NCBI GenBank assembly: GCA_019670725.1
Contig: AP024629.1
Coordinates: 1,240,001-1,304,000, forward strand
Direction of reading: 5' to 3'
Length of the DNA stretch: 64,000 nucleotides
DNA from: Alphaproteobacteria bacterium SO-S41
GTDB taxonomy: Bacteria; Pseudomonadota; Alphaproteobacteria; Micropepsales; Micropepsaceae
Every line of letters starts with the position of its first letter. The stretch's first letter is position 1. The notes under the pieces are model-generated. The model made no database searches. It was not told where the DNA came from and saw only the letters and a program-made list of their open reading frames with translations. The position numbers were made by a program, and so were the translations under genes. Shown piece by piece: positions 55,615 to 61,900 of this stretch.

Positions 55615-57183
55615 ATGAGCGGTCAGGATGAACTCGACGGGCTGATCCGCGAGGCGGTGAACGTACTGTCCGAGGGCTTTGCGGTTCTCGATTCAGACTT
55701 CAAGATGATCTTCGCCAACCGCGCCTCGCTGCGCCACTTCGGCAAGTTCCATGCGGCCGTGCTCGACGGGGCCGACCGGGTCGACGTGACGAAGGCCTCC
55801 GTCCGACCGCACATGCCGGGCGCCAGCGAAGAGGCGATCACGGCCTTCGCGGTGGACTTCATGCGGCGGCTGGAATCCGGCGAGGCCGTGGACATGGTGA
55901 CGGAAGCCGGCCAGACGGCGCGCGTCGTCTACCGCCAGATGTCGAACGGCAAATGGGGCGCGATCTCGACCGATATTTCCGATCTGATGCAGAAGGAAAA
56001 GGAACTGAAGGTCGCCAAGCGCAAGGCGGAAGCCGCCAGCGACGCGAAGTCTTCGTTCCTCGCCAATGTCAGTCACGAGATCCGTACGCCGCTGAATGGC
56101 ATGCTGGGCATGGCGCAGGTCCTCTCCGCGTCCAGCCTGACGGCCGACCAGCGCGAGCAGGTCGATGCGATCCTCGACTCGGGCAAGACGCTGGTCGCGC
56201 TGCTTAACGATGTGCTGGACCTCTCCAAGATCGAAGCCGGCAAGATGGAGATCACGCCGGTCGACACCGACCTCAGCCATGTCCTGCGTCGGCTCTACAA
56301 GCTGTGGCAGTCCGCGGCTGAGGAGAAGGGCGTGGAGTTGACGCTCGACTTCGCGGCGTCGCTGCCGGCGCGGCTGAAATTCGATGCGGTGCGGGTGCGC
56401 CAGTGCATCGGCAACCTGATGTCGAACGCGGTGAAGTTCACCGAGGCGGGCGAGGTCAACGTCCATGTCTCGATCCCCCGCAGCGGACCCAATGCCGGGC
56501 TGGTGCAGGTGCGGGTGACCGATAGCGGCATCGGCATGGATGAGGCGACGATCGGCCGATTGTTCGCGCCGTTCACGCAGGCCGACGGCTCGACCTCGCG
56601 GCGCTTCGGCGGCACGGGCCTCGGCCTTTCGATCTCGCGCAAGCTGGCGCAGATGATGGGCGGCGACGTGAAGGCGAAGAGCACGCCCGGCGAAGGCTCG
56701 GTCTTCACCCTGACCTTCGCGGCCGAAGCAGCGGCGGAGGCGGCGCCTCAAGGCGACGTCGAGAAGGGTTCGCGCAGCGCGCCGCGGCTGACGCGGCCGC
56801 TGAACGTGCTTGTGGTCGACGACGTGCCGCTGAACCGCAAGGTCGCGCGTCTGTTCATGGAGCATCACGGCTGGAGCGTCGTCGAGGCCGGCCATGGCGG
56901 CGAGGCGCTGGACTGTCTGGCCGCGGCGACGTTCGATGTCGTGCTGCTCGACGTCCACATGCCGGTCATGGACGGGCCGGAGACGCTGGCCAAGCTGCGG
57001 GCGAGTGGCGAGGCCTGGGCCGGGGTGCCGGTGATCGCGCTCACCGCCAATGCGATGAGCGGCGACCGCGAGCGCTATGTCGAGATGGGCATGGACGGCT
57101 ATATCTCCAAGCCCATCGACCAGCGCGAGATGTTCGCCGAGATCGGCCGCGTGATGGCGGCCAAGCTCGCGAAAGCCGCCTAG
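55615..57183 (+). CDS. Hybrid histidine kinase with C-terminal receiver
   Basis: A 522-residue soluble signalling protein. An N-terminal PAS-like sensor (about 12-120) is followed by a coiled linker, a HisKA domain with phospho-acceptor His154 in SHEIRTPLNGMLG, a HATPase with NLMSNAVKF near 264-272 and FGGTGLGLSISRKL near 331-344, and a receiver with Asp446 in LLDVHMPVMDG. No membrane helix is seen, so it senses a cytoplasmic signal. No response-regulator or phosphotransfer gene is adjacent. It overlaps the convergent MoxR gene by four bases. Confidence 0.9.
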   Translation: MSGQDELDGLIREAVNVLSEGFAVLDSDFKMIFANRASLRHFGKFHAAVLDGADRVDVTKASVRPHMPGASEEAITAFAVDFMRRLESGEAVDMVTEAGQTARVVYRQMSNGKWGAISTDISDLMQKEKELKVAKRKAEAASDAKSSFLANVSHEIRTPLNGMLGMAQVLSASSLTADQREQVDAILDSGKTLVALLNDVLDLSKIEAGKMEITPVDTDLSHVLRRLYKLWQSAAEEKGVELTLDFAASLPARLKFDAVRVRQCIGNLMSNAVKFTEAGEVNVHVSIPRSGPNAGLVQVRVTDSGIGMDEATIGRLFAPFTQADGSTSRRFGGTGLGLSISRKLAQMMGGDVKAKSTPGEGSVFTLTFAAEAAAEAAPQGDVEKGSRSAPRLTRPLNVLVVDDVPLNRKVARLFMEHHGWSVVEAGHGGEALDCLAAATFDVVLLDVHMPVMDGPETLAKLRASGEAWAGVPVIALTANAMSGDRERYVEMGMDGYISKPIDQREMFAEIGRVMAAKLAKAA

Positions 57184-58679: not shown

Positions 58680-59429
58680 ATGGAACTCTTCAGCAAGGTC
58701 TCGACCTTCATCGAGAAGGCGAAGAAGGTGCGCCGGCTCGACGAGCTGGACCGGCTGCTGGAGGCGACGGCCGACAATCTGGGCTTCGACTTCTACGCCC
58801 TCGGCCATCACGTCGATCTGCAGCTGCCGCCTGAAAATGCCGTTCGGTTGCTGAACTATCCGACCGCCTGGTTCAAGCGCGTGCTGGAGCGCCGCTATTT
58901 CGTCGATGATCCGATCCTGTTGATGTCGCAGCGCGCGGTCGCGGGGTTCCGCTGGTCGGAGGTGCCCGACATGATGGCGCTGACGGCGCGTCAAAAGGCG
59001 ATCCTGGCGCAGGCGCCGCGCGAAGGCCTGGGCGCGGGCTATACCGTGCCGGTTCATGTGCCCGGCGAATATGCGGGGTCGGTCAATTTCGCGGTGCGCA
59101 CCGAACGCAAGCTGCCCGAGGCCTCGCTGCCGTCAGCGCAATATGTCGGTACCGTCGCGTTCGAAGCTGCGCGGCGTTTCCAGCTGGCCTCGATCGGTGC
59201 GGCAAAGGAGCCGCCGGCGCCCCTATCGCCACGGCAACGCGATTGCGTCGCGCTGGTTGCGTTGGGGAAGTCGGACAAGGAGATTGCGCAGCGGCTGGGC
59301 ATCAAGCCGGTGACGGTGAAGAGTTATATCGAGGATGCGATGGCGCATCATCATACAACCCGGCGCACGCAGTTGGTGGTACGTGCACTGTTCCAGGGCG
59401 ATATTTCGTTCTCGGACGTGATCAAATAG
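58680..59429 (+). CDS. luxR: LuxR-type acyl-homoserine-lactone receptor/regulator
   Basis: A 249-residue regulator with an N-terminal autoinducer domain and a C-terminal LuxR helix-turn-helix. The ligand residues that define true AHL receptors are present: the Trp, Tyr, Asp and Pro in YPTAWFKRVLERRYFVDDPIL near residues 58-78 and the Trp in FRWSEV near 92-97. The DNA-binding part is at about 180-240 (LSPRQRDCVALVALGKSDKEIAQRLGIKPVTVKSY). It is followed after 81 bases by the luxI gene. Confidence 0.93.
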   Translation: MELFSKVSTFIEKAKKVRRLDELDRLLEATADNLGFDFYALGHHVDLQLPPENAVRLLNYPTAWFKRVLERRYFVDDPILLMSQRAVAGFRWSEVPDMMALTARQKAILAQAPREGLGAGYTVPVHVPGEYAGSVNFAVRTERKLPEASLPSAQYVGTVAFEAARRFQLASIGAAKEPPAPLSPRQRDCVALVALGKSDKEIAQRLGIKPVTVKSYIEDAMAHHHTTRRTQLVVRALFQGDISFSDVIK

Positions 59430-59510
59430 CGAGGCAGTACCTCCAAAACTAGGGTGCCGCGCGGCCATCGCGCAGGGGAGCCTTCGGGTGTCATCACCGG
59501 AGGGTTTCAA

Positions 59511-60134
59511 ATGGTCTTGGTCGTTCATGCCGGCAACCGGCACCGCTACGAGCGTGAGCTCGATTCCATGTTCCGCGACCGTAAGACGGTGTTCGTCGAT
59601 CTCGCGAAGTGGAAGGGGCTGACCGCCGACGGCGATCACGAGCACGACCAGTTCGACACCGACGCGGCGGTCTATCTGATCGCAGCGGAGCCCGGCACCG
59701 GGCGGCATCTCTCGTCGCTGCGGCTGTTGCCGACCACCGGCCCCAACCTGCTGACTGATGTGTTTCCGCATCTCTGCGCCGGCGCTCTGCCGGCCGCCGA
59801 CGACGTGTGGGAAGTGACGCGGATCTGCTTCGCGCCGCATCTGCGTGGCGGCGCGCGCAAGGAGGTGTTCAAGCTGATCGCGCTGGCGGCCGCCGAGGTA
59901 GGGCTGGTCTATGGCCTGCGCCAATATTCCGTGATGGCCTATCTCAGCTTCCTGCCGGAAGTGCTGGCGATGGGCTGGGACCATGCGCCGCTGGGCGTGC
60001 CGCAGCAGGTGGATGAGCGCGATCCCGTCGTCGCCTTCACGCTGACCATCGACAGTGAAACGCTGCGCAAGTTCAGGACGCAATGGGGCGTGCGCGCGCC
60101 GGTCCTGCATCTCGACACCTATGAGGCGGCGTAA
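59511..60134 (+). CDS. luxI: Acyl-homoserine-lactone synthase
   Basis: A 207-residue LuxI-family enzyme that makes an AHL signal from S-adenosylmethionine and an acyl donor. All conserved positions are visible: Arg24, Phe28, Trp34, Asp46, Asp49, Arg71, Glu101 and Arg104. GGAGGG lies six bases before ATG 59511; a longer in-frame start at 59454 lacks a ribosome site. The acyl chain cannot be predicted. One base separates it from the dioxygenase start. Confidence 0.93.
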   Translation: MVLVVHAGNRHRYERELDSMFRDRKTVFVDLAKWKGLTADGDHEHDQFDTDAAVYLIAAEPGTGRHLSSLRLLPTTGPNLLTDVFPHLCAGALPAADDVWEVTRICFAPHLRGGARKEVFKLIALAAAEVGLVYGLRQYSVMAYLSFLPEVLAMGWDHAPLGVPQQVDERDPVVAFTLTIDSETLRKFRTQWGVRAPVLHLDTYEAA

Positions 60135-60135
60135 C

Positions 60136-61023
60136 ATGGCCGAACGCGACGCTGCTTCCTATGCCGCTGAACTGAACGAGCGCGGCTATTGCATCGTGCG
60201 GGGCGCCGTCACCGGCGGCCTGGTCGAGACCCTGCGCGGCGAACTCCAGCCGCGCATGGATGTGACGCCGATGTGCGACGGCGATTTCTACGGCCGCCGG
60301 ACCAAGCGGGTCGGCGGGCTGTTAAAGCGCGCGCCGCATGCGAGCGACTTCATCGCGCACCGCCTGGTGCTCGACATCGTCGATGCGATCCTGGCACCGC
60401 ATTGCGACCGTTGGATGTTGAACCTGACCCAGGCGATCGAAATCCATCCCGGCCAGTTCGAGCAGTTTCCCCATCGCGATCAGGATCTGTGGCGCGGCAA
60501 CCCCGGCAAGGCGGAGTATCTCGTCAACGTCATGTGGCCGTTCACGGACTATACGCGCGAGAACGGGGCGACGCTGGTGTGGCCGGGTTCGCATCGGGTC
60601 GATCCCGGTGCGCAGATCCCGGACGGGATGCCGGATTTCGACAGCGCCATCGCCGCCGAGATGGCGCCGGGCGATGTGTTGCTGTTTCTCGGCTCGACGC
60701 TACATGGCGGCGGCGCGAACCGGACGAATGCGGTGCGTTCTGGCATGATCGTCAGCTATTGCCTCGGCTGGCTGCTGCCCTACGAGAATCCGTGGCTGAC
60801 CTATCCGCCGGAGATCGCGCGGCACTTCTCTCCTGAGCTGGCGGCGCTGGTCGGCTATCAGCAGCACCGGCCCAATCTCGGCAATGTCGACGGCCGGTGC
60901 CCGTCGCTGCTGCTGCGCGGCGAATTGCAGGAGTTCGGCGCGGCAGCCGACAATCTGACGGCGGAACAGAGCGCGGGCCTTGCGGCCTATGTCGGCGCCA
61001 TGACCCAGCAGGCGGCGGCATGA
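60136..61023 (+). CDS. Phytanoyl-CoA dioxygenase-family (PhyH) protein in the quorum-sensing operon
   Basis: A 295-residue Fe(II)/2-oxoglutarate dioxygenase. The iron triad is visible as His113 and Asp115 in FPHRDQD and His190 in STLHGGGANRT, with a likely 2-oxoglutarate arginine near 201. Members hydroxylate acyl chains or small metabolites. It directly follows luxI and overlaps the next gene, so it may modify the signal or a signal-controlled product. Similar PhyH genes beside luxI are known in sphingomonads. Confidence 0.88.
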   Translation: MAERDAASYAAELNERGYCIVRGAVTGGLVETLRGELQPRMDVTPMCDGDFYGRRTKRVGGLLKRAPHASDFIAHRLVLDIVDAILAPHCDRWMLNLTQAIEIHPGQFEQFPHRDQDLWRGNPGKAEYLVNVMWPFTDYTRENGATLVWPGSHRVDPGAQIPDGMPDFDSAIAAEMAPGDVLLFLGSTLHGGGANRTNAVRSGMIVSYCLGWLLPYENPWLTYPPEIARHFSPELAALVGYQQHRPNLGNVDGRCPSLLLRGELQEFGAAADNLTAEQSAGLAAYVGAMTQQAAA

Positions 61024-61262
61024 GCGGCGCCCCGTTATTGCCCAATGAACCGAGTCTGGCGGATCACGCGCTGACGCTGAAGGCGATCGAGGACGCGCTC
61101 GGGCGGGAGGGCAAACGGTTCCTCGCCTATACGGTTTCGGTCGCGCGGTTGGCGGTGGAGGTCGATGCCGGGCTGCGGCCGAGGCCCGTGCCGCAGGTCT
61201 CGAAGGTGGAAACCGTCGAGGCGGCGATGCGCAAGCTGGGGAAAGCTGTCAGGGACAAGTAG
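61020..61262 (+). CDS. 80-residue protein in the quorum-sensing operon
   Basis: An 80-residue soluble, mostly helical protein (DHALTLKAIEDALGREGKRF in the first half). Its ATG overlaps the dioxygenase stop (ATGA), so it is the last gene of the luxI operon. I do not recognise the family. It could be an accessory subunit of the dioxygenase or an independent regulator; nothing in the sequence decides. Confidence 0.72.
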   Translation: MSGAPLLPNEPSLADHALTLKAIEDALGREGKRFLAYTVSVARLAVEVDAGLRPRPVPQVSKVETVEAAMRKLGKAVRDK

Positions 61263-61279: not shown

Positions 61280-61900
61280 CTAGTCGAAGGGCATGCAGAC
61301 TTCGATGGTTTGGGGGCCTGGGGCCTTCGCGTCGGCGAGGTTGTAGAATTCGAGGATCAGGGCGCCGGGCGGCTTGGTGCCGGACTGGGCGAGGAACTGG
61401 GTGATGAAGTTGGTGCCGTAGGTGACGGCATCCGCCGGCGGACCCTCCCAGCGGACATGGGCGACCTTGGCGGGCGGCAGGCGCAGCAGAACGGGCGTGA
61501 CGCCGTTCGTTGCAGTCGCTTCCGGCGCGCTGCGGGCATCGAGCACCGGGATGGCGACGCCATAGGTCAGGGCAGTCTCGCCGCCGCCGTCCGGGGGCAG
61601 GACGATCGCGATGCCGACGCCGAGTTCAATATTGGCGGCCTTGGCGGCGGCGCGAAGCGTGGCCTCGTGGACGAGGGCGTCGTCATAGAGGCTGGGGCCG
61701 GGCGGAACGGCAGGCGGCTCCACCACGAGATAGAGGCCGCCCGCGGTCATAAAAGCGTTGGGCTCGTTGGCGGCGGCGGCCATCGTCGCGTATTCGTGCG
61801 GATCGATCCAGCAGAGTGGCGGAGGGGCGTCGAAGGCCTCGAGCGTGAGGGCCGGCGCGGCGGCGGCGACAAGGGCCGAAAGCAGACCGAGGACAATCAT
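61280..61900 (-). CDS. Secreted GyrI-like (effector-binding) domain protein
   Basis: A 206-residue protein with a signal peptide (cut near AAAAP, about residue 16) and a mature domain resembling the GyrI-like/SOUL effector-binding fold: LRLPPAKVAHVRWEGPPA, then LEFYNLADA, then TIEVCMPFD at the end. Such domains bind small ligands or haem. ATG 61900 follows GGGGAGGG. It converges on the quorum-sensing operon. Confidence 0.75.
   Translation of the reverse strand: MIVLGLLSALVAAAAPALTLEAFDAPPPLCWIDPHEYATMAAAANEPNAFMTAGGLYLVVEPPAVPPGPSLYDDALVHEATLRAAAKAANIELGVGIAIVLPPDGGGETALTYGVAIPVLDARSAPEATATNGVTPVLLRLPPAKVAHVRWEGPPADAVTYGTNFITQFLAQSGTKPPGALILEFYNLADAKAPGPQTIEVCMPFD

Follow-up and report, generated by a model that had tools for sequence, protein, structure and literature searches.

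Quorum-sensing clusters in which luxR, luxI and phyH follow one another have been published for sphingomonads (PMC3704786, Gan et al. 2013; PMC4288048, 2015; PMC5012321, 2016); the initial annotation of the locus studied here had mentioned phyH beside luxI in that group. The pairing entered the literature in 2013 at the latest, and the excerpts of these three papers at hand, which leave the PhyH reaction unnamed, describe one GntR-like gene downstream of phyH and, in an arrangement termed topology T, a hypothetical gene behind phyH. Here we analysed a locus of this kind in a 64,000-nucleotide stretch of the Alphaproteobacteria bacterium SO-S41 genome (contig AP024629.1, positions 1,240,001 to 1,304,000), hereafter the window. 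The window carries a cassette of this known kind, although its lineage is not a sphingomonad one. We read it as an outlying member of the sphingomonad luxR-luxI-phyH cassette in which PhyH most likely modifies the acyl chain, either that of the signal or that of its precursor, a reading to which we assign a rough probability of 0.45. The locus, with its fourth gene designated X, consists of the following features:

58680–59429, + strand: luxR, 249 residues, putative acyl-homoserine lactone (AHL) receptor and activator with Autoind_bind and GerE domains
59439–59455, no strand: ACCTCCAAAACTAGGGT, the degenerate counterpart of a TCCCC-N6-GGGGA dyad; its best 16-mer agrees at 6 of 10 arm positions, which is chance level
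59499–59504, + strand: GGAGGG, the likely ribosome-binding site of luxI, read directly in the sequence
59511–60134, + strand: luxI, 207 residues, predicted AHL synthase with all nine checked residues
60136–61023, + strand: phyH, 295 residues, predicted Fe(II)/2-oxoglutarate dioxygenase of the luxI-linked subfamily
61020–61262, + strand: X, an 80-residue open reading frame (ORF) in ATGA overlap with phyH; an orphan with predicted helices at residues 13–49 and 63–79

The luxI stop codon (60132–60134) and the phyH ATG at 60136 leave a one-base gap, and the X ATG at 61020 overlaps the phyH stop as ATGA; the four + strand ORFs, the gap and the overlap all lie where the initial annotation had put them. 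Since a − strand ORF ends at 61280, directly behind X, X appears to be the final gene of the + strand run. In gene order, common strand and short luxI-phyH gap the locus conforms to the luxR-luxI-phyH cassette and matches novR-novI-phyH of Novosphingobium and other Sphingomonadaceae, with LuxI about 33–43% and PhyH about 51–60% identical between the window and sphingomonad loci. It differs from novR-novI-phyH in lying outside the sphingomonads, in the degenerate dyad before luxI and in having X in the place taken in sphingomonads by a GntR-like regulator, a virB-linked gene or a second luxR; the published topology T, as far as the excerpts describe it, resembles the window in having a hypothetical gene after luxI-phyH. 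The genome is a single contig of 4.44 Mb, and its sole Autoind_synth match is the window luxI.

The synthase and receptor carry the hallmarks of their families. LuxI matched Autoind_synth at 59.1 bits against a curated Pfam cut-off of 24, and the claim that it keeps all catalytic residues held for the nine positions checked (R24, F28, W34, D46, D49, R71, F85, E101 and R104). Eight of the nine were invariant in 85 LuxI sequences from luxI-phyH loci, the window included, while F85 was replaced by Tyr in 8 of them. LuxR matched Autoind_bind (101.6 bits) and GerE (45.3 bits), both above the curated cut-offs. Its ligand pocket was compared at six positions that we take to be TraR Y53, W57, Y61, D70, W85 and G113. 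Five of them are matched (by LuxR Y60, W64, D77, W92 and G120 at TraR Y53, W57, D70, W85 and G113), and V68 occupies the Tyr61 position; the earlier statement that all AHL-contact residues are present was not confirmed. Tyr occurred there in just 8 of 81 LuxR sequences, most of which have Phe, and is no constant of this LuxR group. The best solved-structure matches of the LuxI profile were 6wn0 (a 4-coumaroyl-homoserine lactone synthase), 6wns and 5w8a, presumably RpaI, MesI and BjaI, some of which we take to be CoA-dependent; such relatives would suit a PhyH that acts on acyl-CoA.

PhyH matched its Pfam domain at 103.9 bits, above the curated cut-off. The Fe/2-oxoglutarate residues H113-x-D115, H190 and R201 are present and were invariant in 87 aligned sequences, window included. 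The AlphaFold model (pLDDT 92) resembled most closely the tailoring dioxygenases SptF and AndA (Z ~31), and PrhA was also similar. The luxI-linked PhyH subfamily is set apart by 18 near-invariant residues, such as Y52, P112, P135, Y223, R245 and N250, which 28 other PhyHs (L133, described below, among them) seldom share. Over 80 loci PhyH was the best conserved of the three proteins, with a mean distance of 0.42 compared with 0.52 for LuxI and 0.56 for LuxR, and the distances of LuxI and PhyH correlated at 0.87, as expected of co-inherited genes. An identity as phytanoyl-CoA hydroxylase was rejected, as it rests on the family name alone.

This PhyH subfamily is placed almost exclusively beside luxI. 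A PhyH-profile scan of genome contigs yielded 327 confirmed stretches, the best 80 of which, most of them titled as sphingomonads, were kept; removal of four own-family copies (L050, L052, L093, L095) and addition of ten own-family loci gave 86 PhyH-chosen loci. In 84 of these luxI lay directly before phyH, mostly at gaps of −4 to +41 bases, with start codons chosen automatically. In the two exceptions, no luxI was found (L122) or the contig ended right before phyH (L123). The same held for all 29 PhyH loci listed for the order of the L109 genome, which differs from the order of the window; one locus is common to both counts, L217 among the 29 being L109 among the 84. Within the window's own order (96 genomes, all of one family), luxR-luxI-phyH occurred in 11 genomes, that of the window and ten others. 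With the window LuxI as query, LuxI was detectable in 31 of the 96, and no match was obtained in the four other members of the genus that were searched. The subfamily is well separated from other PhyHs: across 385 genomes sampled from the class, the next-closest PhyHs reached at most 242 bits, compared with 484–510 for the two subfamily members that this sample contained. Among 28 of these next-closest PhyHs, 27 had no luxI within 1.5 kb. The exception, L133:9-2421, belongs to another family and is a far diverged luxR-luxI-phyH operon (LuxI 25%, PhyH 33% identical) in which luxI and phyH overlap by one base.

A LuxI tree split cleanly into phyH-linked and phyH-less synthases (support 100/99), the former having been chosen via PhyH and the latter drawn from the window's family only; the split thus does not speak for sphingomonads, in which phyH-less LuxIs matching the same profile exist. 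Of the 13 Sphingomonadaceae luxI loci that lack phyH altogether, 11 (L187-L189, L191-L195, L203, L205 and L206) have a long same-strand ORF behind luxI, split in a few, that by eye resembles an NfrB-type glycosyltransferase.

A candidate for shared control was found upstream of luxI. In relatives, the dyad TCCCC-N6-GGGGA lies some 72 bases ahead of luxI. Of 71 distinct upstream stretches, with related loci counted separately, 31 agree with it in at least 9 of the 10 arm positions, against 0.07 expected from 20,551 control stretches. It was seen upstream of luxI in L040, L041, L043 and L046 and in the sphingomonad loci L056, L094 and L113. With at most one mismatch, the pattern stood at the luxI promoter in 8 of the 11 own-family genomes searched; G021 (locus L047, with one site behind phyH) and G030 each held two further places. 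A reversed control pattern was about equally frequent overall, and therefore the position of the dyad alone is informative. On this basis the dyad is a good candidate for the LuxR-binding site. It is common yet not universal in the cassette, and we did not treat it as defining.

In the proposed mechanism, LuxR would bind the AHL made by LuxI and, as relatives suggest, activate a common luxI-phyH-X transcript; PhyH, expressed together with the synthase, would then modify an acyl chain, be it that of the signal or that of the acyl-thioester used by LuxI. Our best guess for the outcome is an AHL modified in its acyl chain. A more specific version, in which the luxI-linked PhyH oxidises the acyl chain, by alpha-hydroxylation or in another way, on either the AHL or LuxI's acyl-CoA, giving a modified autoinducer in many Alphaproteobacteria to which the regulator in the fourth slot (often GntR, here X) responds, is in our view quite unlikely. 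If it were true, targeted assays could have mistaken a 2-hydroxy-AHL for a 3-hydroxy-AHL, the two being equal in mass. As far as the excerpt of PMC5012321 details them, the targeted transitions used there would not separate 2-hydroxy from 3-hydroxy AHLs by mass. According to the part of PMC11674143 at hand, strain Rr2-17 over-expressing its luxI made no fewer than nine AHLs, together with two TraR-active signals that may be uncharacterised. Searches of the open-access literature for a PhyH reaction on AHLs returned mainly genome-context papers and no such report, most subscription papers lying outside the search.

Several points weigh against our overall reading of the locus. The window LuxI forms a long branch (0.81) in the LuxI tree. 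The stretch before its gene is degenerate, agreeing at 6 of 10 arm positions with no recognisable dyad, and among the 11 genomes searched those of the window, G043 and G048 lack the dyad at up to one mismatch genome-wide; we therefore infer LuxR control of the window operon from relatives only. Novosphingobium subterraneum LuxIs expressed in Agrobacterium from a plasmid described as carrying novI gave C8, OH-C8 and OH-C10 AHLs among others (PMC5012321, in the excerpt available). The neighbouring phyH is therefore not required for the hydroxylated or unsubstituted AHLs of these LuxIs. Finally, 14 of 30 LuxI-chosen Sphingomonadaceae loci have no intact phyH (13 none, one with fragments) and 16 have one; these 30 were the loci returned for the best matches, LuxI matches occurring in 62 of 199 Sphingomonadaceae genomes. 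Whereas luxI often stands without phyH, phyH of this subfamily occurs almost exclusively beside luxI. Such one-sidedness points to PhyH as the dependent partner, probably relying on what LuxI makes or on its substrate or precursor, and not to LuxI relying on PhyH.

The gene linkage would look identical for a PhyH that serves the circuit as an output enzyme. In this alternative, which we regard as somewhat doubtful, PhyH is quorum-regulated and acts on an unrelated small molecule (a fatty acid, lipid or secondary metabolite), leaving the signal untouched. Its nearest solved relatives are indeed natural-product tailoring dioxygenases, luxI does occur without phyH, and an output gene, too, would be carried along in the luxI operon. 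However, genes of the subfamily hardly ever occur without luxI beside them (it is present in 84 of 86 and 29 of 29 loci), whatever the fourth gene, which is unusual for a general output enzyme. The weakest alternative, a built-in turnover in which PhyH inactivates or ages the signal by acyl-chain oxidation, could draw on the same linkage data, on the oxidation of small molecules by PhyH relatives and on the negative feedback that a co-expressed quencher would give, but it lacks direct support and the familiar AHL signal-turnover enzymes are lactonases, acylases and P450s; we rate it the least probable of the three readings of PhyH.

Tailoring of the signal or its precursor remains the reading we prefer for PhyH. 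The pairing itself was known; the counts presented here sharpen the question of whether PhyH acts on the signal or its precursor, and the candidate LuxR-binding dyad offers a handle on co-regulation. The strong bond between PhyH and luxI still calls for an explanation and is what most deserves further attention.

The position behind phyH is occupied by different genes. For 129 luxI-phyH loci, what follows phyH was classified by same-strand matches in the next 700 bases; the loci of different searches were pooled without dereplication, L109 and L217 being one and the same. The commonest follower was a GntR-like regulator (66 loci), ahead of a small exported protein of virB-linked type (20), a DUF2285-type regulator (9), a LuxR (7) and a member of a small-protein family that we call S (3); the other 24 loci had another gene there or nothing recognised. 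The GntR-like ORF, exemplified by L124:6828-7403, begins four bases inside phyH in at least 24 loci, exactly as X does, and its product could sense the PhyH product. The nine DUF2285-type genes encode a two-domain regulator with PF10074, presumably the former DUF2285. By these counts the fourth slot is most often filled by a regulator, and in the window it is filled by the orphan X; with no GntR-family fourth gene, the window locus is not a luxI-phyH-gntR operon. In the loci with two luxR genes that were inspected, such as L056, the ORF next after luxI-phyH encodes a 112-residue protein with a signal-like start (by eye) that is unrelated to X; the window has one luxR. As a separate observation, a second luxR follows luxR-luxI-phyH in L040-L044 (genomes G065, G030, G066, G067 and G052) and in L046 (G034); L040-L044 also have a second luxI, distantly related to the first, so that two signalling pairs lie side by side.

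The initial annotation had treated X as part of a four-gene unit and had suggested counting how often the 80-residue gene accompanies luxI-phyH. No X match was found behind phyH in the 129 loci (best E 0.96), leaving the four-gene unit unsupported; the fourth gene is unconserved beside luxI-phyH, one half of what that annotation had named as counting against it. Its broader idea, that the dioxygenase and the small protein act on the signal or in response to it, survives in part: PhyH is tied to LuxI (84 of 86 and 29 of 29 loci, compared with 1 of 28 for other PhyHs), and X lies outside the conserved unit. Searches elsewhere gave the same picture. X had no significant relative in the 95 other genomes of the family, where seven weak matches (E 0.0055–0.079), none of them near a luxI detected in the LuxI search, were taken as chance. 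None was found at E 0.001 in 384 other genomes of the class, none at E 1 in PLSDB plasmids, and a scan of viral contigs gave 61 pattern stretches, none of which was confirmed. With no relative in family, class, plasmids, the 129 loci or viral contigs, X was rejected as a conserved partner of luxI-phyH. It had no match in Pfam, DUF2285 included, or in NCBIfam, and a DUF2285/QseM-type identity was rejected on the Pfam result. The small ORFs behind phyH in other loci were likewise rejected as homologues (pairwise shuffle p ≥0.79 for L048, L049 and L109, 0.098 for L045 and 0.40 for L053). To judge by these comparisons, X is an orphan, a lineage-specific and predicted helical small protein outside the conserved cassette; for the window alone, the fourth gene adds an orphan and no conserved partner.

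Because X has no homologue, its coding status was assessed on composition alone, with a codon test trained on nine 20-kb stretches and a crude longest-ORF gene set. X is probably coding from its ATGA start. Its codon score of 0.214 was the best of the six frames and lay at the 34th percentile of real 80-codon windows, and just upstream of the start the same frame scored −0.379. The possibility that X is a chance or recently arisen ORF with no selected function, which we consider unlikely but the stronger of the two alternatives for this gene, is consistent with the failure to detect a significant homologue in any set searched, with the abundance of long ORFs in GC-rich DNA and with the 7.7% of false 80-codon windows that reach an equal score. 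Against it stand the six-frame result, the rise in codon score at the start and the exact ATGA coupling.

If X is translationally coupled to phyH, the likeliest guess for its role would be that of a small regulator. Precedents exist: in the excerpts at hand, CinS, from the cinIS operon of Rhizobium leguminosarum, inactivates PraR (PMC4149787), and QseM acts as an antiactivator in a QseM/FseA circuit with DUF2285 proteins (PMC10359603). The cinIS operon resembles the window in gene position, with a small regulator gene in an AHL synthase operon, and differs in that the excerpt does not mention PhyH (PMC4149787); QseM shows that a small helical protein can control a quorum-sensing circuit, whereas X, also small and predicted to be helical, has no DUF2285 match (PMC10359603, excerpt). 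A role as antiactivator or antirepressor, in the manner of TraM, QseM or CinS but without homology to them, would fit the 80 residues of X, its predicted helix-hinge-helix, its coupling at the operon end and the recurrence of a different small family, S, beside luxI. The AlphaFold single-sequence model (two helices, 13–49 and 63–79) reached a pLDDT of only 70, and at this low confidence the fold search returned no match (best E 6.5). The lack of a Pfam match, of a PDB sequence match better than E 0.23 and of membership in family S also argues against such a regulator, which we hold to be rather improbable.

Assignment of X to family S was rejected, as the hhalign probability was below 1% and 200 of 2000 X shuffles scored as well. 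Family S comprises small two-helix-like proteins and had no above-cut-off Pfam match for the two members scanned. It is rare, with 3 carriers among 199 Sphingomonadaceae genomes and 11 among 96 own-family genomes at E 0.01, the weaker of these matches being doubtful; at E 1e-5 it was absent from all 289 genomes of a class sample that included no known carrier. Members lie behind phyH in L045 (G026), L053 and L073, behind luxI without phyH in L197 (with an ATGA overlap) and L198, and away from luxI in L171, L173, L174 and L248; the coupling is sometimes ATGA or TGATG.

Upstream of luxR, on the same strand and with opposite-strand ORFs in between, the window also holds an ORF at 55615–57183 that by eye looks like a hybrid sensor histidine kinase bearing a receiver domain.

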